DNA of 22,874 bases from positions 1 through 22,874 of IMG/VR virus record IMGVR_UViG_3300034073_000582; one strand, 5' to 3'. Source of the DNA: a virus. Below the pieces are notes generated by a model. It saw only the letters and a program-made list of their open reading frames with translations, did no database searches and was not told the origin of the DNA. Positions 214 through 12,225 of the stretch are shown here, piece after piece; within the stretch, counting starts at the first letter, position 1, and each line of letters begins with the position of its first letter. The position numbers were made by a program, and so were the translations under genes.

Positions 214-426
214 CTAGTGGTTCTCGATGTGGTCCGTCAACCTCTCAGAAACCTTATCTATCTTGGTTTCTACGCTGCCCTGCTTTTTATAAACCATCTT
301 CAGCATCCCCATCACAACCTCATGATCTGAGGCGTTCTCCTTCTTGAATCGTTGGAGCAGGGCGACTATGACAGAAAAAGCACCAGCAACAACGGCGCTA
401 AGAAAGACAGCCCACCCAGCGTCCAC
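214..426 (-). CDS. Small membrane protein with coiled coil, lysis-associated
   Basis: This is a 70-residue protein starting at GTG 426, one base after the endolysin stop codon, with an AGGGAG ribosome binding site. Residues about 5-24 form one hydrophobic helix (AVFLSAVVAGAFSVIVALLQ), preceded by a very short acidic N-terminus. The rest is charged and helical with a heptad-like pattern (VETKIDKVSERLTDHIENH), which suggests a short coiled coil. One membrane helix plus a soluble coil beside an endolysin is common in actinophage lysis cassettes, where such proteins are annotated as holin-like or accessory membrane proteins. I cannot assign a role from sequence alone. An antiholin or accessory holin role is plausible. 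Confidence 0.75.
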   Translation of the reverse strand: MDAGWAVFLSAVVAGAFSVIVALLQRFKKENASDHEVVMGMLKMVYKKQGSVETKIDKVSERLTDHIENH

Positions 427-427
427 A

Positions 428-994
428 TCAAGCTCCCTGTGATTCCTTCCACGCCTTCACGCGCTCAGGCACATCATCGCCTGCAACGTAACGCAGATGC
501 CACGGCTCTGACGGAAGTACTTCCCACGAGAACCCGAATGACACAGCGTTCTTGGCAAGCCACTCCAAACGCTTCGGTTCTGCGGCGTTGGCAATATCGA
601 TGGCCACCCCGTAATTATGCTGACTCGTACCAGGCACCGCCAGCTGCGCCAATTTTGGTGACTTCAAATACCAAGCCTTGCCCTTGTAGACACGGGGCTT
701 CTGCTTCATCTGCTTCTTGTTTGGCTTGTCGGTGTATCGCTGGAAGAATCCGTACTCCTGAACCGCAAGACTGCGATATGTGTCCGCTGGGCTAGTCGGG
801 CTGAGGTCAATTCCTTCTGCGTTAGCCGCGGCGTCCATCGCCTCGTATGCGTCAGCCGCACAATGATGCAACTGACCTTTGCCTTCGATCTTGCGCAAAA
901 GCGACGGGTCCAATTCACCTGGCTCCACCCCTTTGAGGTGCGAGCACAACTTCACCTTGATGATGGGAAGTTTGGCGATGTCCACCTTCGCCAT
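428..994 (-). CDS. Endolysin, M15-family D-Ala-D-Ala carboxypeptidase/endopeptidase (VanY-like)
   Basis: This is a 188-residue zinc peptidase expected to cut peptide cross-links in host peptidoglycan at lysis. The M15 signature is complete. SQHNYGVAIDI at residues 124-134 supplies the zinc ligands His126 and Asp133. EPWHLRY at 163-169 supplies the catalytic Glu163 and third ligand His166. TYRSLAVQ (about 72-79) matches the usual substrate-binding YRS...Q segment upstream. The start ATG overlaps the holin stop by one base (TAATG). No signal peptide is seen, so export would depend on the holin. No wall-binding domain is visible at either end: the first 60 residues are short and partly hydrophilic, and the peptidase domain ends close to the C-terminus. 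The family assignment is firm; the exact bond cut is inferred. Confidence 0.93.
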   Translation of the reverse strand: MAKVDIAKLPIIKVKLCSHLKGVEPGELDPSLLRKIEGKGQLHHCAADAYEAMDAAANAEGIDLSPTSPADTYRSLAVQEYGFFQRYTDKPNKKQMKQKPRVYKGKAWYLKSPKLAQLAVPGTSQHNYGVAIDIANAAEPKRLEWLAKNAVSFGFSWEVLPSEPWHLRYVAGDDVPERVKAWKESQGA

Positions 995-1248
995 TATGCG
1001 GTCGCCTCATCCTTCTTCTTCGGTGCACCAGCGCCAGAGAACGCGGCTTCAATTTCTTCCTTCGTCAACGTGCCATCCACGCTGAAACGGAGAAGCTTCT
1101 CAACGACCTGAGCACAGGCCATCACGCCAGCAAGGGCAGCAGACTTCCACAGTTCAACACCGATGATTGCGCCACCAGCAACCGCAGCCAAAGCCGAGGA
1201 GCCGAACAGGGCGAAGATACGGAAAATGATGTTCTTGAGCTTGTCCAT
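994..1248 (-). CDS. Putative holin, two membrane segments
   Basis: This is an 84-residue protein. Two hydrophobic segments are visible, roughly residues 8-30 (FRIFALFGSSALAAVAGGAIIG) and 33-50 (LWKSAALAGVMACAQVVE). A charged, soluble C-terminal tail follows, ending in KKKDEATA. The pattern of a short amphipathic start, small-residue-rich helices, a Trp near the second helix and a charged tail resembles the r1t-type phage holins of Gram-positive hosts. Holins form membrane lesions that release or activate the endolysin. Its stop codon overlaps the endolysin start, the classical holin-endolysin order. The gene starts one base after the stop of a 53-residue membrane protein, so the two may act together, for example as holin and antiholin. 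Family membership is inferred from topology and position. Confidence 0.8.
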   Translation of the reverse strand: MDKLKNIIFRIFALFGSSALAAVAGGAIIGVELWKSAALAGVMACAQVVEKLLRFSVDGTLTKEEIEAAFSGAGAPKKKDEATA

Positions 1249-1249
1249 T

Positions 1250-1411
1250 TCAGTCTTTCTGGGAGAGGGATAACGCTGAGTGCAGGATCAATGTTACACC
1301 AGTTATCCACAGGGCTGACCGGAGAGTAGGCCCAGACAAGGTAATCAACACAAGGCTGGTTCCGGCGTAGGTCCATGAGTTGTCGCTCAGGAAGTTGAAG
1401 AATTTACGCAT
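1250..1411 (-). CDS. 53-residue two-helix membrane protein, second holin-like gene
   Basis: This short gene starts at ATG 1411, which overlaps the TGA of the upstream PA14-like gene (TGATG). It ends at TGA 1250-1252, one base before the holin ATG. The protein begins MRKFFNFLSDNSW. It has two hydrophobic stretches, about residues 14-28 (TYAGTSLVLITLSGP) and 31-50 (LRSALWITGVTLILHSALSL), and ends SQKD. The basic N-terminus and two short helices are typical of small holins, antiholins or holin accessory proteins. The overlaps on both sides strongly favour translation. Without this gene there would be an unexplained 160-base gap inside an otherwise gapless operon. The function is inferred from topology and neighbours only. 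Confidence 0.7.
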   Translation of the reverse strand: MRKFFNFLSDNSWTYAGTSLVLITLSGPTLRSALWITGVTLILHSALSLSQKD

Positions 1412-2904
1412 CAGCGCCGTATTCTAGTACCTGCTGCTGCGAGCGTTACCCCTGCTGTTACAGCGATTAGTGTGCGTCTGGTGCCGACTGGGATGTTGGA
1501 TCCGAGGGGCACATAGTCATCTAAGCCTTCACCGAAAATGTCAATCGTGTCCTCGAACGCTTCACGGACTTCGGCTGGCGCATCCTGTACCGCTTCGATC
1601 AGGGCAGCGACTTGGGTGTTATCTAGTTCGCTAACATTCAACGCCTCGAAGATGGCTTCAGCCTGCTCTACGCTTGCTACTGCAAGCACCTGTGGGTTGG
1701 TGGCAAGCTGGGCAGCCTGCGCAGGGGTCGGTTCGGAGGACGCATCCAGAGCCTCTAGGAGCGTTTCAGGGGTATCAATAGTGCTGACAGGGGGTTCGCT
1801 CTCGTCTACGGGGCTTACAGGAGGCTCTGCGTCGATTGTGGGGGCATCCTCAACAGGGATGTCCACGGCTGGTTCCTGTGGATCCTCCACCACATCCTCC
1901 TCGAACGGGGGTAGCGTGTCCACCGATGTTTGAGTTTCTGGGACTTCTGGGTCTGTTACTGGCGGTTGTGGTGCTTCCGTTGTTGATACTGGGGGCACAG
2001 TCGTGGAAGGTTCAATCGTGGCTGATGGCGGTGGAGGTACCCATTCTTGTGTGGTTGACGTGGCAGGTAGCGTCGTACTCGTAGAAGGAGGAACAGATGT
2101 TGTTGAAGATTCTTGTGGGATGGTGCTTGTTGTCTGTGGCGGTGGTTCCGTTGTGGAACTACTGGTTGCGGAAGGGACGCTCAAACTGGTAGTGGTTTGA
2201 GCCACTGTGGTGGAGGTTGAGGATGAACTCGTTGTTGTTTCTGGTTCAGTTGTGGTGGTGGACGACGAGGAAGTAGTCGTCGGTTCCTGAGTGGTTGAGG
2301 TTTCCTGAAGCGTCGTAGAAGTAGTGGTCGTGGCAGGGGCAGTCGTTTCGGGGACAGTAGAAGTAGAGGTCGTCGTCACAGGGGTGGATGCTGTTGTAAA
2401 TGCCCATTCTGGAACGATCTCCCAATATGCGTCGTCAATCTTCCAAGCGAGCATATAGCAGGTACCGCCACCAGCCTCAAAGAACCAGCCATCCAACGGG
2501 TATTCGCCCGGCATAACGGAAAGCGTTATGGTCTGCGACCACGAGCAGCCCTTCAGGTTCCAAGTACCGAACTCGTAGCCACCGATATTGACTGTGCCAC
2601 CGTCATCGGCTGCGACCATGAACTCAATCGTTTCGTGTTCGGGCAGTGTGATGAACCCTGTGTAGTGGACCATGAAGTAGTCCCAACCGCACTCTTGGAA
2701 TGGTTCTCCGTTGAAGTTGCGGTTGATGTTGTTTTCGACCTCGGACCCGCAAGTGGGGTACAGGTTGTCTGAGCGTTCCGGTGGTATCTGGTCAATCAGA
2801 TAGCCGACAGCGTTCAACCCGTATTCGGGTTCAGCTTGTGCTTCTCTGGGAAGTAAAGCGAAGAAAACCGCTGGAAGAAAAACGATCCAGCGACTTCTGA
2901 ACAC
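1411..2904 (-). CDS. Secreted PA14-like protein with Thr/Ser/Pro-rich stalk and C-terminal hydrophobic anchor
   Basis: I place the start at GTG 2904, two codons' length from the upstream TAG, because it puts a signal peptide at the very N-terminus. Residues 1-24 have a basic start, a hydrophobic core (WIVFLPAVFFALL) and an AQA cleavage motif. The protein has 497 residues. Residues about 28-165 look like a PA14/GLEYA-type carbohydrate-binding beta-sandwich: the DDGG motif is at 100-103, followed by a paired-strand pattern, and Cys52, 72, 120 and 149 could form disulfides. Residues about 171-315 are almost only Thr, Ser and Pro. Residues 316-385 are acidic and Pro-rich. Residues 385-462 look helical. 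A short hydrophobic segment with Arg on both sides (478-497) ends the protein. It lies between the fibre genes and the lysis genes. It may display a lectin on the host surface or be a virion fibre; the signal peptide favours the former. Confidence 0.8.
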   Translation of the reverse strand: MFRSRWIVFLPAVFFALLPREAQAEPEYGLNAVGYLIDQIPPERSDNLYPTCGSEVENNINRNFNGEPFQECGWDYFMVHYTGFITLPEHETIEFMVAADDGGTVNIGGYEFGTWNLKGCSWSQTITLSVMPGEYPLDGWFFEAGGGTCYMLAWKIDDAYWEIVPEWAFTTASTPVTTTSTSTVPETTAPATTTTSTTLQETSTTQEPTTTSSSSTTTTEPETTTSSSSTSTTVAQTTTSLSVPSATSSSTTEPPPQTTSTIPQESSTTSVPPSTSTTLPATSTTQEWVPPPPSATIEPSTTVPPVSTTEAPQPPVTDPEVPETQTSVDTLPPFEEDVVEDPQEPAVDIPVEDAPTIDAEPPVSPVDESEPPVSTIDTPETLLEALDASSEPTPAQAAQLATNPQVLAVASVEQAEAIFEALNVSELDNTQVAALIEAVQDAPAEVREAFEDTIDIFGEGLDDYVPLGSNIPVGTRRTLIAVTAGVTLAAAGTRIRR

Positions 2905-2905
2905 G

Positions 2906-3127
2906 CTATGCGATGTTGTTGAGTTCCGCCTGATGCACGTTGATCGCGGCTTCAAGGGTGGCGAGAGCCTGTTCTGCTGATGCGACACCAGCCTCATCGT
3001 TCAACTGGGCACAGGTTTGCTTGTTCAGTTCATGTTGCCATGCTTCGGCAGCGAACTGGGCGATGCGCTGGTTCAGGATGTTTTGCTTCTGTTCAGCGGT
3101 GAGTAGTGAGGTGTAGTCGATTGCCAT
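2906..3127 (-). CDS. Small helical protein following the tail fibre
   Basis: This is a 73-residue protein starting MAIDYTSLLTAEQKQNIL at ATG 3127. The start is fixed by a strong ribosome binding site, TAAGGAGCAACC, whose TAA is also the stop of the tail fibre gene. A longer frame to 3178 would lie inside the fibre gene and lacks this signal. The sequence is rich in Ala, Gln, Glu and Leu and should be nearly all helix, with a heptad-like C-terminal half (VASAEQALATLEAAINVHQAEL). Small helical proteins of this kind often follow tail fibre genes in environmental phages and could be fibre chaperones or small virion proteins. I do not know a proven function. Its stop is one base from the GTG of the PA14-like gene. 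Confidence 0.8.
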   Translation of the reverse strand: MAIDYTSLLTAEQKQNILNQRIAQFAAEAWQHELNKQTCAQLNDEAGVASAEQALATLEAAINVHQAELNNIA

Positions 3128-3137
3128 TGGTTGCTCC

Positions 3138-5603
3138 TTATGCGTTTGCGATGGTGGTAACGGTACCAGAAGACCCACGATATTTCAAGGCTCCTGATTC
3201 AACATAGAGGTAACCGCCACCCGTGGGGTTGGCCGATGGTGCTGTGCCATTAGCGATTGCCACGATTTTTGCACCAGAAAAAGACGACATGTTGATTCCG
3301 AGGTTTCCTGCATTGTCAATACGCATGCGTTCTGTGGTCGATGATGCCCCGTCCGCGGTAGTCAAAAACAGTAAACGACCAGGCATATCGTTTGTGCCAG
3401 GTGTTCCATCAACGGTTGCTTGAATAGCGGCACCCTGAATGTAGCCCGTTCCATCAGAACCCCAGAATTGAATCTGACCAATCGTGTCGCCGTCATTGAC
3501 TACCGTGTGGCTACCAACAGTTGCGTTTCGTGATTTAGCGAAAGCATAAATGGATGAACCGGAGTCTGCCGAGTATCGTGCACTACCGATAACGGTTGAG
3601 CCAGAGCCATAAGCGCCGACGAGTGGCGTGTTCCCACCCTGAAAACCGTAACCAGTTCCGCTTCCCACATTGAGGCGACCAGTTGAATCAAATGTTGACA
3701 GCGCGGTGCCAGCGGAGTTCTGTATCTCGAACAGGTTTCCAGACTGACTTGCGGCACCCTTCACCACTAGCGCCTTATCACCTGCGGTCGTGTTCGTTAC
3801 CTGTGCCATTACGCCAGAAGTGAGAGTCGCACCAACACCAAGACGACCCGCAAGAAAGTTGGCTGCGGTACCAGACATGTACAGGTTCCACGCATTTGAA
3901 GCAGCGGCAACATCACCCAAAAACCCGTAATTATTGGTGGCACCACTAAGCGCCGCAGTTACACGGAAACCATACTGGCTGGTAATCGTTGATCCAGCAC
4001 CAGGGGTCGAAATACCAACAGCATCAAAGTGAACCAAATTGGACAGAGTAAACGAAGCAGCTTGTGTCGATACGCTAGAACGATAGGTCGCTGCTGTGGC
4101 TGTCACATCTGACTGAATTGCACCGTTGACCAAAACCCCAATAGAAGTTGTTGAACCAGTAATCGTTTTGGCAACAATAAGGTTTCGTCCTGCGGTTGGC
4201 AATCCACCAACACCTAACGAACCAGCCAGATAGTTGTCTGCGGTACCGTTCATATACAGGTTGTAGCGACCCGTAGCAGCGGCTACATCGCCGTAGAACG
4301 CAAAGTTGTTTGTTGCACCAGTAAGACCACTGTCAACATAAAAACCGTATTGGTTTGTAATCGTAGAACCAGAACCAGGTGTAGCGACACCAGCCACATA
4401 AAAACTGGTGAGACTTGCCAAAGTAAATGATGCGGCTGCCGTGCTCACAGCAGAACGGTAAACCTGAACTGCACCAGTAACATCTGACTGGATTGCGCCG
4501 CTTACCACAGCACCAATAGAAGTTGTCGCACCAGTTATGGCCTTGCTAACCGTAAGGTTTCTTCCCGCGGTTGGTGTTCCACCGATTCCTACTTGTCCGC
4601 TGGAGTCGATACGCATACGCTCCGTATTGTTTGTCCACAGTGTCAATGGTGAAGAAAGAGTATTTACAATCGCCGCAGAATTCGCTCCACCAAATGACGT
4701 AGCGGTAGAACTTCCCACAAGAAACCTAAAAGCGGTTGCAGAAGAATCGTTCCCAATGTTTATACCAGAAAAAGCTGTCGAACCAGCGTTTACGTTTCTC
4801 ACATGAACCGACTGCGCTGCATCCAAATCTGCAACAATGTTCAACGGACCAACAAATGACGATGTGCCAATGGCAACTCGCCCATCTGGACCAATCACAA
4901 AAGGTGTCGAATCAGGATTCGTGCTGTCCTCAACCAACAGCGCATTACCAGCACCAGTCTGCGTAATCCTCAACAGGCCGCTAGACGACGAACCAGACAA
5001 AATCGCACCAGCAAACGTTGGGGTCGCACCCGTATGAATATCCTGCGGAGTAGACAACGTAACCGCAGCAGACTCAGAACCAGACCCAGACACCGTAATC
5101 TGATTCGACGTACCAGCAATCGTCGCAACATAATTACCAGTCGTATCCGTACCCAAATCAATGGCATCCCACTCCACACCATTCGTCGCACCAGAATTAG
5201 CCTTCAAAAACGTTGTGTTCGCACCAACCGCCAAACGATTCAACGCCGACCCATCCGTAACCAGCAGATCACCCTTCGTGGTCAGCTTCGCAACAAGTTC
5301 ATTCGCCTCATCCGCATCATTCGCGGTAAACACCGGATAAATCGTTGCACCAGACGAATGAGATTTCCCAGTCGTATCATCCTGCGCACGAGTCAACGTC
5401 AACGTTGAACCAGAAATCGTCGCTGAACACTTCTCCTCAGACGAAGTACCAGGATCAATCACCACATAAAACGGCACACCAGCCGAAGAAGGCCAACCCG
5501 TTGTTGCCGCGATACCAACAGTTGTGTCGGTCGCGTTGATAGCCCCAGTGATCGTGGTGGAAGCCGCAGCTCCCGCATACTGTCGTCGTGTAAAAGCAGC
5601 CAT
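3138..5603 (-). CDS. Tail fibre / minor tail protein built from repeats
   Basis: This is an 821-residue, Gly/Ser/Thr/Ala-rich beta protein. The N-terminal part (about 1-100) holds a module ending in a TLTRAQDDTTGKSHSSGA stretch, also seen in the putative adaptor at 7474..8358, which suggests attachment to the tail. Residues 105-250 contain short fibre motifs (TKGDLLVTDGSALNRLAVG, GPDGRVAIGT). Two near-identical 125-residue repeats follow (341-465 and 466-590). The motif TTERMRID occurs at 327-334 and again at 757-764, as in many phage fibre shafts. No catalytic motif or intramolecular chaperone is obvious at the C-terminus, which ends LYVESGALKYRGSSGTVTTIANA-like. Fibres of this kind bind host receptors. 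The start ATG follows the upstream stop by eight bases. Which end binds the receptor is inferred. Confidence 0.85.
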   Translation of the reverse strand: MAAFTRRQYAGAAASTTITGAINATDTTVGIAATTGWPSSAGVPFYVVIDPGTSSEEKCSATISGSTLTLTRAQDDTTGKSHSSGATIYPVFTANDADEANELVAKLTTKGDLLVTDGSALNRLAVGANTTFLKANSGATNGVEWDAIDLGTDTTGNYVATIAGTSNQITVSGSGSESAAVTLSTPQDIHTGATPTFAGAILSGSSSSGLLRITQTGAGNALLVEDSTNPDSTPFVIGPDGRVAIGTSSFVGPLNIVADLDAAQSVHVRNVNAGSTAFSGINIGNDSSATAFRFLVGSSTATSFGGANSAAIVNTLSSPLTLWTNNTERMRIDSSGQVGIGGTPTAGRNLTVSKAITGATTSIGAVVSGAIQSDVTGAVQVYRSAVSTAAASFTLASLTSFYVAGVATPGSGSTITNQYGFYVDSGLTGATNNFAFYGDVAAATGRYNLYMNGTADNYLAGSLGVGGLPTAGRNLIVAKTITGSTTSIGVLVNGAIQSDVTATAATYRSSVSTQAASFTLSNLVHFDAVGISTPGAGSTITSQYGFRVTAALSGATNNYGFLGDVAAASNAWNLYMSGTAANFLAGRLGVGATLTSGVMAQVTNTTAGDKALVVKGAASQSGNLFEIQNSAGTALSTFDSTGRLNVGSGTGYGFQGGNTPLVGAYGSGSTVIGSARYSADSGSSIYAFAKSRNATVGSHTVVNDGDTIGQIQFWGSDGTGYIQGAAIQATVDGTPGTNDMPGRLLFLTTADGASSTTERMRIDNAGNLGINMSSFSGAKIVAIANGTAPSANPTGGGYLYVESGALKYRGSSGTVTTIANA
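3834..4208 (-). repeat. Second copy of a 125-residue tail fibre repeat
   Basis: Codons 466-590 of the tail fibre repeat codons 341-465 with exactly the same length (375 bases). Shared landmarks are GGLPTAGRNL, TSIG, GAIQSDVT, YRSSVST, GSTIT, QYGF, SGATNN, GDVAAA, NLYM, GTA and LGVG. The copies differ at many positions, so the duplication is not recent or has diversified under selection. Confidence 0.85.
4209..4583 (-). repeat. First copy of a 125-residue tail fibre repeat
   Basis: Codons 341-465 of the tail fibre form the first of two tandem units. They begin GGTPTAGRNL and end LAGSLGVG. The unit is directly adjacent to the second copy, with no linker. Each unit probably adds one segment of beta-structured shaft. 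Confidence 0.85.
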
Positions 5604-8800: not shown

Positions 8801-8945
8801 TACGGGAAGCCCAAGCGTTATCCACAAGGTTCGGGTAACGGCGACCAGCTTTCTTCGCACGAGCCTGCGCAGCCTTCTTCTGAGAAGCCGACAACGGGGT
8901 GGACTTCTTCTTCGGGTTCTTCTTATCCCAGAACTGCTTCTTCAT
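8793..8945 (-). CDS. Basic 50-residue protein (WDKKNPKKKS...YPNLVDN type)
   Basis: This gene starts at ATG 8945, which overlaps the TGA of the glycosyltransferase gene (ATGA, four bases), and ends at TAA 8793-8795. The protein begins MKKQFWDKKNPKKKSTPLS, continues with an Ala/Lys/Arg helix (QKKAAQARAKKAGRRYP) and ends NLVDNAWASRNG. The ATGA coupling and the overlap with the next gene support real translation, even though the gene is very short. The KNPKKKS...YPNLVDN pattern is one I have seen in small phage proteins next to the KGGLNAKGR family, but no function is known to me. Strong positive charge suggests contact with DNA or with acidic capsid surfaces. Confidence 0.75.
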   Translation of the reverse strand: MKKQFWDKKNPKKKSTPLSASQKKAAQARAKKAGRRYPNLVDNAWASRNG

Positions 8946-10030
8946 ACCAATGCTCCTGCTGCGTAAAGGATGTCTTGCACGTTTTCTTCAACCTCATACT
9001 GTATCCCAGGCACGAAGCGTTGCGCTTTACCGTTGATCTCGACCGTGGTTGCTTTGTTGACTTGGGCAGGGACCACGGGTTTTGGGGAAGTCCATTTAGC
9101 TGACGCTGGCAGTTTCTTGCCTTTTGGCACCACCTCAACCAGCCGTTGCGCTGCTTTCTCCCACGAGAACTCATCGGTCAGCACAGCACGTTCACGGGCA
9201 TCCACCCGCAACGCTGAACGGTTCTCATAGTGGAAACGCATTAGACGCACCAGATCATTCAGATCAGGCTCGTCCCACACCCCGCCGTGCCGTGACTGTT
9301 TCAGTGTGGACTTCACTGTTGAGCTAGCGAGATGCGCAAACTGTTCCTGCCCAGATGTGGCAGTCAGGATAGTTGGGACACCACACGAAATCGCCTGCAA
9401 CGGAATCAACCCGAAACCCTCACCACGGGCAGGAGCCACCCAACAGTCAGCAGAGTTGAAGAACTCGACCTGCTCACTCATCGTCATCCACTTACGGTGA
9501 AAAATGATCCGAGGGTCACGAATATCGTCAGGCACATCAGACGCATGCGGAGCCATCTTCAGATGCAGTTCAGCGTCAGGAAAATCAAGTTTTAGAAACG
9601 CCTTCACCACAGCATCGATACCTTTGCGTTCCCACAGGGAGCCACCAGCCATAAATCTGAACACCTTGTTCTCTGCCCGTTGCTGTGGCATCCAGATAGT
9701 GCGATCCACACCCAACGGCACATAGTTCACGTTCGGATGATGCTTACTGAAAGTCTCAACATTATGTTTGCAGGGGACAAGGATCTGGTCGTATTGGGCG
9801 AGCCAACGCACAAACCTGAGTGGCACAACCGAGGTTTCCCACATCGTAAAACAGACACGATGCTGCTTCTCATACCAGCCCTTACAAGAGAACGGCACAC
9901 CCATGTGGACCGACACGCTCGACATCTCATCCAACGTCACCCCATCAGGCACATGGTTCAAGAACCCGTTGAGCATCGAGCCGTAGCCGAACCTGCCATC
10001 GGTGAACCCGTGCCAATGCTGAACGTTCAC
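8942..10030 (-). CDS. GT-B glycosyltransferase (GT4-like) with C-terminal extension
   Basis: The start is set at GTG 10030, which forms a GTGA overlap with the upstream glycosyltransferase stop and has GGAG seven bases upstream; a longer ATG frame to 10078 would overlap more. The protein has 362 residues. The second Rossmann domain carries FRFMAGGSLWERKGIDAVVKAF (about 124-145) and the donor-site block RGEGFGLIPLQAISCGVPTI (about 203-222). This is the EX7E motif of family GT4, with the second Glu replaced by Gln212. WETSVVP (64-70) and VPCKHNVETF (about 85-94) fit the acceptor half and linker. Residues 329-362 form an extra tail (TTVEINGKAQRFVPG...ILYAAGALV) not typical of the enzyme. It should transfer a sugar from a nucleotide donor; the target is unknown. 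Its place in the virion operon suggests protein glycosylation. Confidence 0.85.
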   Translation of the reverse strand: MNVQHWHGFTDGRFGYGSMLNGFLNHVPDGVTLDEMSSVSVHMGVPFSCKGWYEKQHRVCFTMWETSVVPLRFVRWLAQYDQILVPCKHNVETFSKHHPNVNYVPLGVDRTIWMPQQRAENKVFRFMAGGSLWERKGIDAVVKAFLKLDFPDAELHLKMAPHASDVPDDIRDPRIIFHRKWMTMSEQVEFFNSADCWVAPARGEGFGLIPLQAISCGVPTILTATSGQEQFAHLASSTVKSTLKQSRHGGVWDEPDLNDLVRLMRFHYENRSALRVDARERAVLTDEFSWEKAAQRLVEVVPKGKKLPASAKWTSPKPVVPAQVNKATTVEINGKAQRFVPGIQYEVEENVQDILYAAGALV

Positions 10031-10698
10031 AACGGCTCCGGTGGGAAACACGATCCAGGTTTGATGCCACCATCCCAAATCATCTGCTTCACCAACGCAA
10101 TCTGCTGTACAGCCTGCTCATAGTTCGCTGGTATGGACTGCTGCCCGTCATGAAGGTTGTAAAAGTATCGGACCCGATCCTCAAACCGCACATCCAAACA
10201 ATGCTGGTAATACTCCAAACTGGCAACCCAGTCAGCCCACGGAATCGGGCGATGCGGAATCAGATGCGCAATATCTCGATGAACAATCCGATATCCGTCA
10301 AGGGTGAACCAATTATCGTTTAGACAGTTTATCCAACGCTCTTTGGTTGGGGTGTGAATATCTTTCTTGCTGTCAATGTAACTGGATACAAGCACATCGC
10401 CTTCGAGCACTAGGTCTTGGAAGGCGTCTGCTGGCATCACATCATCCAACCCAAGAAACCCCACATAGTCGCTTGTGGCTTCACGCATCCCATGATTGAA
10501 CGACTCCCAGATGAACGGTTCCACGGCTGGTATTTGTCGAATATTTTCAGGCAACTCCGCTTTCACATCGCTGACGAGAAGAATCTCGTTCGGTTGCGGA
10601 TCAAACGCAGTAACGACCGCTAACCATTGTTTCCCCCATTTATCCCAATACTCTTGGGATGCGGTGGAGACAAGCGAAACCGTTGAACCGGATCTCAT
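10027..10698 (-). CDS. GT-A type glycosyltransferase-like protein (GT2-like)
   Basis: This is a 223-residue protein. It has the layout of a small GT-A nucleotide-sugar transferase. N-terminal beta strands (VSLVSTAS, EILLVSDV) are followed by FNHGMREATSDYVGFLGLDDVM at about 67-88, where the acidic LDD at 84-86 replaces the DxD metal site. This is the usual 'N.G...A..D....LD.DD' arrangement of family 2. WADWVASLEYYQHC (154-167) resembles the acceptor-side acidic helix. At 223 residues it is short for the family, so it may be a minimal catalytic domain. The start ATG overlaps the upstream TGA (ATGA) and its own stop overlaps the GT-B gene. The two enzymes probably act on one pathway, possibly building a short glycan on a virion or host surface molecule. 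Confidence 0.75.
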   Translation of the reverse strand: MRSGSTVSLVSTASQEYWDKWGKQWLAVVTAFDPQPNEILLVSDVKAELPENIRQIPAVEPFIWESFNHGMREATSDYVGFLGLDDVMPADAFQDLVLEGDVLVSSYIDSKKDIHTPTKERWINCLNDNWFTLDGYRIVHRDIAHLIPHRPIPWADWVASLEYYQHCLDVRFEDRVRYFYNLHDGQQSIPANYEQAVQQIALVKQMIWDGGIKPGSCFPPEPL

Positions 10699-10997
10699 TT
10701 GACAATCGCATCAAGAGTCGGGTTGATAATCCCTGTCTCAACCTGAAACTTGGTTTCAGCGATCTGCTCAATCTTCGCTGACCCATCCACATTATGCGGC
10801 TGCAACCCCTCGTCACGCAAACGCTTATACGCATCCAAATCCTTCTCCAACACCTTGTCCTTTGCAGCGATCTGAGCAACCCTCGCACCGCCACCACGAG
10901 TAGGGGCAGCTGAAGGTGCGACACCCACCCAAGCAATCTTGCAACCGAAACAACCCTCCACATCCAACGAAGGATGTGTCTCCTGATGCTTTATCAC
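10695..10997 (-). CDS. Small conserved phage protein with His/Cys cluster
   Basis: This is a 100-residue protein starting at GTG 10997, overlapping the upstream TGA (GTGA). The N-terminus contains His4, His8, Cys16 and Cys19 in an H-x3-H-x7-C-x2-C arrangement (HPSLDVEGCFGCK), which could bind zinc. The HPSxxVEGCFGCK block is one I recognise from small conserved proteins in phage structural operons. A Gly-rich stretch (RGGGARV, about 34-40) separates it from a helical charged region (IAAKDKVLEKDLDAYKRLRDEGLQPHNVDG). The protein ends ETGIINPTLDAIVK. Zinc binding is a guess from spacing. Its position between virion genes and the glycosyltransferases does not settle the function. Confidence 0.75.
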   Translation of the reverse strand: MIKHQETHPSLDVEGCFGCKIAWVGVAPSAAPTRGGGARVAQIAAKDKVLEKDLDAYKRLRDEGLQPHNVDGSAKIEQIAETKFQVETGIINPTLDAIVK

Positions 10998-11290
10998 GTG
11001 ATGTAACTCCCGTATCCCGCCGCGATCAACGCGGCTTCTTCCTCTACTGTCACCACATTATCGTGCCCACCGTAGAACACGGTGCGAATGTCCGCTGGGT
11101 CCGCAGGGTCATTCTCGGTAAAGGTGCCATTCAGAAGCCAATACACGTTTCTACCTCGCGGGGCAGCAGGATAAAACTGGGCGAGTCTGCGTCGAAGCCT
11201 CTCATCACGCGACAACACACCAAGCACACTGTCACGGGTAGTGGGGGCTTGGGTAACGAAATTGTCGGTCGGTGGACGAAAAGTAGCCAT
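10994..11290 (-). CDS. Small virion protein, paralogue of the C-terminal domain of the repeat protein
   Basis: This is a 98-residue protein starting at ATG 11290, which overlaps the upstream TGA (TGATG). Residues about 46-98 (RGRNVYWLLNG, VFYGGHDNVVT, EEEAALIAAGYGSYIT) align with the last 53 residues of the repeat protein just upstream (RARNLYKLTDG, VYLGSHSNFLT, EVSELTAAGYGSYIT). Both end in the same seven residues. The first 45 residues (MATFRPPTDNFVTQAPTTRDSV...) are different and lack the glycine repeats. This looks like a duplication of the C-terminal domain, fused to or left with a new N-terminus. The domain may be an attachment or decoration module on the capsid or tail. Function is inferred from position. 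Confidence 0.8.
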   Translation of the reverse strand: MATFRPPTDNFVTQAPTTRDSVLGVLSRDERLRRRLAQFYPAAPRGRNVYWLLNGTFTENDPADPADIRTVFYGGHDNVVTVEEEAALIAAGYGSYIT

Positions 11291-12225
11291 CAGGTTATAT
11301 AACTCCCGTATCCGGCTGCTGTCAACTCGGACACCTCGGTATCGGTAAGAAAATTACTATGCGAACCCAAATACACTTTTACCACCTGCCCTTGATCTCG
11401 TTGCTCGACGGTGGTGTAAGTGCCATCTGTCAGCTTGTACAGGTTTCGTGCACGGCGACCAGAACGGTCATAGGAACGCAAACGCTGGTTCGTATCAAAG
11501 TTGGCAAACAAACCACCAGGGTATTCGTCGTCGGCTGGCACGCGGAAAATACGGGATTTCGTCCACGAAGCAGAACTGCTACCCGTGCCTGACGCAGATG
11601 CGGTTCGTGGCACAAGTCGAGCACCAACAACAACATCCGAGCCTGTGCCAGATCCTGTTGCGGTACGCAAACTGATTACAAGATCAACACCAACCCCAGA
11701 GCCAACACCCGAACCGGTGGCTGTACGTATCGGGACACGAACAATAACTGTTGCCGATGAACCAACACCAGCCCCTGTCGCTGTGCGCACACGAATGTAA
11801 TCCCCATCAGCAGAACTAGACCCAGTACCAGAACCTGTCCCTGTGCGAGCGGTAAACAGTTTTTCATCGCTAGAGGAAGAACCTGTACCAGAACCTGTCG
11901 CCGTGCGCGGAGCAATATGCAGCCCGTTAGCTGTTTGTGTACCGGCACCAGAACCAGTTGCGGTACGAACACGAATGTAATCACCAGTCGCAGACGAAGT
12001 TCCAGTACCAGAACCCGTTGCCGTTCGGAACCTGATAATGAGACGATCAGCGGTTCCCGTGCCGACACCACCACCCGTAGCGGTACGGAACCTGATGATA
12101 AGCCCAACCGCCGAACTAGTTCCAGCACCAGACCCAGTAGCGGTCGCTGTTACAGGATCACCAACATAAAACCTTCTGGTGCCGACAAACGGTTCAGTAA
12201 ACCCGATTACCGCTGTTCTGGCCAT
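11290..12225 (-). CDS. Virion protein with ten 20-residue Gly/Thr/Ser-rich repeats
   Basis: This is a 311-residue protein starting at ATG 12225 with ribosome binding site AAAGGGGA. After a short N-terminus (MARTAVIGFTEPFVGTRRFYVGDP), ten units of exactly 20 residues run from about 28 to 227. The consensus is RTATGSGTGSSSADGxxIRV. A Gly/Ser/Thr turn alternates with a short hydrophobic-basic strand (LIIRF, DYIRV, LVISL), the pattern expected of a beta-solenoid or a triple-stranded fibre. A linker (228-258) with PADDEYPGGLFANF follows. The final 53-residue module ending AAGYGSYIT is shared with the next gene. Position after the capsid and small virion protein suggests a head fibre or decoration protein; a tail-fibre part is the alternative. 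Thr and Ser in each unit could be glycosylated by the nearby enzymes. Confidence 0.85.
   Translation of the reverse strand: MARTAVIGFTEPFVGTRRFYVGDPVTATATGSGAGTSSAVGLIIRFRTATGGGVGTGTADRLIIRFRTATGSGTGTSSATGDYIRVRTATGSGAGTQTANGLHIAPRTATGSGTGSSSSDEKLFTARTGTGSGTGSSSADGDYIRVRTATGAGVGSSATVIVRVPIRTATGSGVGSGVGVDLVISLRTATGSGTGSDVVVGARLVPRTASASGTGSSSASWTKSRIFRVPADDEYPGGLFANFDTNQRLRSYDRSGRRARNLYKLTDGTYTTVEQRDQGQVVKVYLGSHSNFLTDTEVSELTAAGYGSYIT
11545..12144 (-). repeat. Ten tandem 60-bp coding repeats
   Basis: The RTAT motif (or RTGT/RTAS) recurs at residues 47, 67, 87, 107, 127, 147, 167, 187 and 207, with a related TATATGSG at 26-33. That is exactly 60 bases per unit with no insertion or deletion. The most regular DNA part encodes ACxGCxACxGGxTCxGG-like strings, but the strand-forming half of each unit varies. 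The units have diverged enough that they do not look like a recent slippage product. Confidence 0.9.

Follow-up and report, generated by a model that had tools for sequence, protein, structure and literature searches.

The window analysed here, that is, the whole stretch of 22,874 nucleotides (positions 1 to 22,874) of the IMG/VR virus record IMGVR_UViG_3300034073_000582, carries on its minus strand a gene for a stalked lectin-like protein and a small partner gene for a protein with two predicted transmembrane segments (two-TM). These two genes together are referred to as the module. The stalk protein is covered by no PHROG, and its only annotated relative, from phage DSL-LC01, is labelled hypothetical. 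The features of the locus are, in the direction of reading:

3138-5603, minus strand: tail-fibre-like gene upstream of the module, with PHROG tail fibre and virion structural matches
1411-2904, minus strand: complete gene of the stalk lectin, with 497 codons, from a GTG start at 2904 to a stop codon at 1411-1413
2833-2904, minus strand: predicted signal peptide (residues 1-24), cleavage between AQA and EP, whose AxA motif and hydrophobic core are kept across the family
2398-2832, minus strand: PA14-fold head (residues 25-169), from an AlphaFold2 (AF2) model, PDB comparison and profile match
2602-2607, minus strand: Asp100-Asp101, at the position of the calcium/sugar motif (DcisD) of PA14 lectins
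1903-2397, minus strand: Thr/Ser/Pro stalk (residues 170-334), 165 residues, 70% T/S/P, no Lys or Arg
1771-1902, minus strand: acidic linker (residues 335-378), 15 D/E, no K/R
1546-1770, minus strand: helical domain (residues 379-453) with which the constant pedestal begins, AF2 pLDDT >90
1414-1545, minus strand: C-terminal segment, with a YVPLGS-type motif and an Arg-flanked hydrophobic helix
1432-1488, minus strand: the Arg-flanked hydrophobic helix (residues 473-491) within the C-terminal segment
1250-1411, minus strand: two-TM partner gene, 53 codons, phrog_29041, whose ATG overlaps the stop codon of the stalk gene (TGATG)
994-1248, minus strand: holin-like small membrane protein, 84 aa, with hydrophobic segments
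428-994, minus strand: VanY-type peptidase, probable endolysin (Pfam VanY, 58 bits)
214-426, minus strand: another holin-like small membrane protein, of 70 aa, weak Phage_holin_3_7 match, with a homologue in 166 loci

The start of the stalk-lectin gene matches the starts of its homologues (VKRASRW, VGRSSRW), and its signal peptide is of the AxA type (VFRSRWIVFLPAVFFALLPREAQA, followed by EP). The open reading frame at 1411-2904 is where a preliminary description of this DNA had placed it, and all the parts that were named there are present; the stalk, which it gave as 145 residues, measures 165 residues (170-334). The stalk is disordered in the AF2 model, and its four Thr codons are in about equal use, as in the adjoining fibre gene, so the stalk is no DNA microsatellite or repeat artefact.

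Structure prediction of the head gave a PA14 fold, in agreement with the PA14-like domain with four cysteines proposed earlier. The AF2 model, built with 46 family members, has a pLDDT >90 over most of the length of the head, and comparison with the PDB aligned it to solved PA14 domains with Z scores of about 16-18 over 137-149 residues. The top structural matches were the RsgI PA14 (Z 18.3), MpPA14 (Z 16.4) and MhPA14 (Z 15.4), with Flo1, Flo5 and Epa1 at Z 13-14, and the family profile matched the solved PA14 domains of RsgI3 (E 3e-24) and MhPA14 (E 1e-6). The window protein scores 15.7 bits against Pfam PA14 (PF07691), below the curated cut-off of 24, and a distant family member with the same pedestal (L205) scores 40.1 bits, above it. 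Judged by sequence and predicted structure, the head is a divergent PA14-fold clade and not a member at the Pfam threshold.

Asp100-Asp101 is invariant in 46 of 46 aligned members, and the four head cysteines are kept in 45 of these. In the profile alignment the aspartates fall on the DDG of solved PA14 lectins, in which the adjacent Asp-Asp (DcisD) holds calcium and sugar (PMC8092209). The sugar-loop residues Gln156 and Asp159 of MpPA14 are not kept in the same alignment, where the window head has Ala144 and Gly147, so that the ligand of the head probably differs from that of MpPA14, or may be absent. PA14 domains are known in non-lectin roles too. On balance we consider it fairly likely that the head binds a glycan. 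Low dN/dS values (0.04-0.16) show purifying selection on the head, in contrast to a recognition surface that changes fast.

Export and anchoring were judged by conservation across family members, and the homologues bear out the signal peptide that had been read from the window alone. A hydrophobic segment precedes the head in 77 of 80 distinct PA14-head proteins and in all 49 proteins with the second head; a cleavage motif of the strict AxA type is found in 71 of the 80 and 44 of the 49. At the other end, a hydrophobic C-terminal segment is present in 104 of 105 distinct tails and a YxPxGS-type motif near the C-terminus in 218 of 220 distinct ends. Sortase anchoring was rejected, as none of the 220 distinct ends has LPXTG before the C-terminal helix. 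At about 16 residues the hydrophobic helix is short, and in some members PPP comes after it, both of which count against a display function. The conserved features make it highly probable that the stalk protein is exported and membrane-anchored.

The export signal, PA14-type domain, stalk and membrane anchor also back the earlier view of a cell-surface protein as opposed to a cytoplasmically assembled fibre. A virion (tail) protein with unusual ends would agree with the adjoining tail-fibre gene and with the frequent occurrence of carbohydrate-binding domains in tail proteins, but has a very small chance of being correct given the conserved cleavable-type signal peptide and membrane tail, the conserved cysteine pattern, the two-TM partner and its fusion to the stalk protein, and the absence of the gene from the collinear relative E7.

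The partner protein (MRKFFNFLSDNSWTYAGTSLVLITLSGPTLRSALWITGVTLILHSALSLSQKD) has two hydrophobic segments and an invariant TLSG turn. A small ORF lies directly downstream of the stalk gene in 244 of 273 loci, mostly with an overlap of a few bases, and most, but not all, of the small ORFs listed are of the two-TM type. A scan with the two-TM protein gave at least 548 close relatives among 599 hits; among the best 80 of these relatives, a stalk protein is encoded upstream in all 77 that have enough upstream sequence to be evaluated. In large phages (L128, L141, many of L211-L240, and DSL-LC01) the two-TM segment is itself part of the stalk protein, at its C-terminal end. In agreement with this, the independent profile phrog_29041, which carries no functional label, matches the window partner over its whole length (residues 1-53, 100.7 bits) and the DSL-LC01 stalk protein at residues 891-935 (E 1.8e-5). 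From the gene fusion and the strict neighbourhood, the stalk protein and its two-TM partner very likely act together in the membrane.

The stalk-lectin gene had been described as directly upstream of the lysis genes, but the 53-codon two-TM gene (1250-1411) intervenes before the holin-like gene. The 84-aa holin-like product matches PHROG 26427, labelled nuclease; its hydrophobic segments make this label doubtful, and we judge it unlikely. In most relatives the module is flanked by a tail-fibre-like gene on one side and the holin/VanY cassette on the other, with a holin homologue within 800 bp of 137 of 183 distinct stalk genes and VanY within 2 kb of 139 of them. Late expression, as previously suggested, is read from this position and agrees with it in most relatives, but in DSL-LC01 the stalk gene lies away from the endolysin and its downstream neighbours are not lysis-like. 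Promoter and terminator scans gave no more matches than expected by chance. A small ORF between the fibre and stalk genes of the window (2906-3178, minus strand) occurs in 6 fetched loci only and looks recently inserted.

The proximity of holin and VanY genes, the membrane base and the long linker would all suit a role in lysis, in which the head grips the outer envelope while the base sits in the membrane, and either helps to break the envelope or blocks glycan receptors on debris, which would spare the progeny. This is quite unlikely, since the DSL-LC01 gene is placed as just described, Planktophila phage E7 lyses its host without the module (PMC10202952), and a mechanical task needs no variety of heads.

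The family of the stalk protein is very large. The PA14 head was found in at least 216 IMG/VR contigs and the pedestal in at least 370, at one module copy per phage. Whatever the head, the pedestal is present in every family member with an intact 3' end, and the few members without it are truncated at a contig end or disrupted by a change of frame. This one C-terminal pedestal bears at least seven different heads:

PA14 head: 100 distinct proteins
CBM/MAM-like sandwich head: 60 distinct proteins, best Z 11.9 to VesC, with carbohydrate modules at about 8
L-type legume lectin head: L208 (139.7 bits, cut-off 78.3)
PPC-like domain with Fn3-like repeat: L237 group and L076 (assigned by eye, no Pfam hit)
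Sandwich with right-handed beta-helix: L223 group (L223:3448-6687; beta-helix by Pfam)
Further beta domain: L298 group
Small Cys-containing head: L261 and L360

The protein with the L-type lectin head (L208:2407-6732) is a 1442-aa relative encoded in a 154-kb phage contig. That other heads on the pedestal, the L-type lectin and the CBM/MAM-like sandwich, are also carbohydrate-binder folds supports a glycan-binding display.

PA14 and sandwich heads are found in phages that share one gene order, and the major capsid proteins of two phages with sandwich heads have 71-76% identity to that of the window. Between the window and L040 the heads are nearly identical (dS 0.13) and the pedestals near saturation (dS 2.4); between the window and L003 the pedestals are close (dS 0.18) and the signal peptides far apart (dS 1.7). 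This mosaic of silent-site distances suggests that the stalk is probably the recombination joint at which heads are swapped.

Exchangeable heads bear on superinfection exclusion, in which the head would cover a glycan receptor so that other phages cannot adsorb. A lectin-type head displayed on the infected cell would fit this, as would the wide spread of the module among phages of one broad host group. However, among PA14 heads at least 85% identical, only 17 of 107 pairs resemble each other at all over the final 150 residues encoded upstream, and for sandwich heads the count is 3 of 118 pairs. The heads do not change together with the tips of the upstream fibres, which weakens masking of the phage's own receptor, although the receptor-binding protein may be encoded by another gene than this upstream one. 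The place beside the lysis genes moreover points to expression late in infection, which in most cases would come too late for exclusion, and we hold exclusion to be unlikely.

A search for the pedestal in bacterial genomes (84,980 species), with a pattern that recovers about 55% of the phage versions (105/191) and that divergent bacterial relatives could escape, gave one match, a phage-like contig in a Flavobacteriales metagenome-assembled genome (MAG). This contig (L076) carries a peptidase and phage-type genes and is probably a misbinned actinophage. No pedestal homologues were found in plasmids, and the head alone gave weak matches only when searched against annotated phages. Matches of the pedestal in the PDB and Pfam (protein A, MgtE_N and like) were weak helical matches and were set aside, and membership of a defence system was rejected, as PADLOC returned nothing. 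No description of the stalk-lectin family was found in the literature, mostly outside subscription papers, on phage-encoded lectins and PA14 domains in freshwater phages.

The major capsid protein of the window shows 44% identity with its counterparts in Streptomyces phages and matches those of the Planktophila phages E7 and F5 (OX376640, OX376641), in E7 as two pieces at 46-51% identity. E7 (L207, OX376640) has the capsid gene and several tail genes in the order of the window and is without the stalk, pedestal and partner genes, which makes it a useful natural comparison; the pedestal has no match in the record of either E7 or F5. That these cultured relatives do without the module counts against a display function. 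WhiB was found in 28 of 31 records searched, almost all of which carry the module, and in 1 of 14 control genomes (Corynebacterium), with no match in the window fragment itself. The presence of WhiB in carriers indicates actinobacterial hosts, and on these gene matches the module carriers are actinophages.

The layout of the protein resembles that of several known surface proteins. Yeast flocculins and epithelial adhesins (Flo5, Epa1) share with it a signal peptide, an N-terminal PA14 head with Asp-Asp, a Ser/Thr-rich stalk and a C-terminal anchor. The window gene differs in being viral (from actinophages), in having a membrane helix and two-TM partner instead of a GPI anchor, and in a base that also carries heads of other folds. 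The flocculin-type plan is thus present in layout, and the likeness is one of a way of working that the sequence suggests, and not of membership in a clade. TraA/TraB of Myxococcus likewise combine a signal sequence, a PA14 head with Asp-Asp, a stalk, a C-terminal sorting helix and a translationally overlapping partner, and overexpression of TraA (with TraB) makes Myxococcus cells adhere (PMC3325183). TraB is OmpA-like, whereas the phage partner is a two-TM hairpin, and the stalk of TraA is Cys-rich where that of the phage is Thr-rich; no sequence relation was found beyond PA14, and the likeness is again one of plan.

Among PA14 domains, MpPA14 and MhPA14 of RTX adhesins have the same fold (Z 15-16) with aligned Asp-Asp, but differ in the Gln156/Asp159 positions, in anchoring and in size. 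The PA14 of RsgI, from Clostridium polysaccharide sensors, is the closest solved domain in sequence and fold and is membrane-anchored like the phage protein; RsgI has an intracellular anti-sigma domain, of which none was seen in the phage protein. Protein WJZ48438 of Actinomycetia phage DSL-LC01 (PMC10611076) has the same pedestal domain and two-TM segment, but the latter is fused to it and the heads are others. The streptococcal prophage adhesins PblA and PblB are also phage gene products that bind at the cell surface, but as virion proteins derived from tails they lack the plan of signal, stalk and anchor. What is new here is that the known plan of a PA14-type surface adhesin would occur in a viral, two-part, head-swapping form.

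We propose that the stalk protein leaves the cytoplasm via its signal peptide. Its C-terminal helix would stay in the cytoplasmic membrane, beside the two-TM partner translated with it, and the stalk of 165 residues would lift the PA14 head across the wall of the infected actinobacterial cell. An extended stalk would span roughly 0.3 nm per residue, so that 165 residues would reach about 50 nm, which should be sufficient for a Gram-positive wall. By binding sugars outside, the head could make the late-infected cell stick to neighbouring cells or particles, as membrane debris would after lysis, and the phage would presumably benefit from more hosts nearby at burst. On the sequence features, a two-part phage display module with a glycan-binding head, probably an adhesin on the dying host, has a little under an even chance of being the right description. 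Adhesion is favoured as the main purpose by analogy with flocculins and with TraA, a choice that we make tentatively. More tentative still is the wider proposal of a dedicated viral display, in which a constant pedestal (C-terminal domain and two-TM segment, separate or fused) carries swapped lectin heads of unrelated folds that bind chosen glycans before lysis; it would be the first flocculin-like adhesion system from phages of free-living freshwater bacteria.

The head types are those of general adhesins, and freshwater phages carry genes aimed at eukaryotic grazers (PMC6802176); both would agree with attachment to particles or protist surfaces, or with protection from grazers, in place of attachment to other bacteria. 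A benefit so late in infection is hard to see, however, and we give this little credence. Freshwater actinobacteria are among the commonest lake bacteria, and the majority of genes in the phages that infect them lack an explanation; the module is present in hundreds of freshwater actinophage contigs. The sequence data suggest that, shortly before lysis, many freshwater actinophages alter what the host cell adheres to. If hosts are indeed made sticky, or their surface masked, late in infection, this would change how infection spreads in plankton, and the family would provide a ready set of swappable glycan-binding heads with directly testable targets.

Further genes of the window, all on the minus strand, were noted in passing. 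Between the tail genes lies a GT4-type glycosyltransferase gene (8942-10078), overlapped by a gene at 10027-10698 that is kept in 2 fetched loci and may, as a guess, encode another glycosyltransferase. The ORF at 11290-12225 contains repeated RTATGSGTGTSS-type units, and its C-terminal AAGYGSYIT recurs in the next small gene (10994-11290), as if duplicated.
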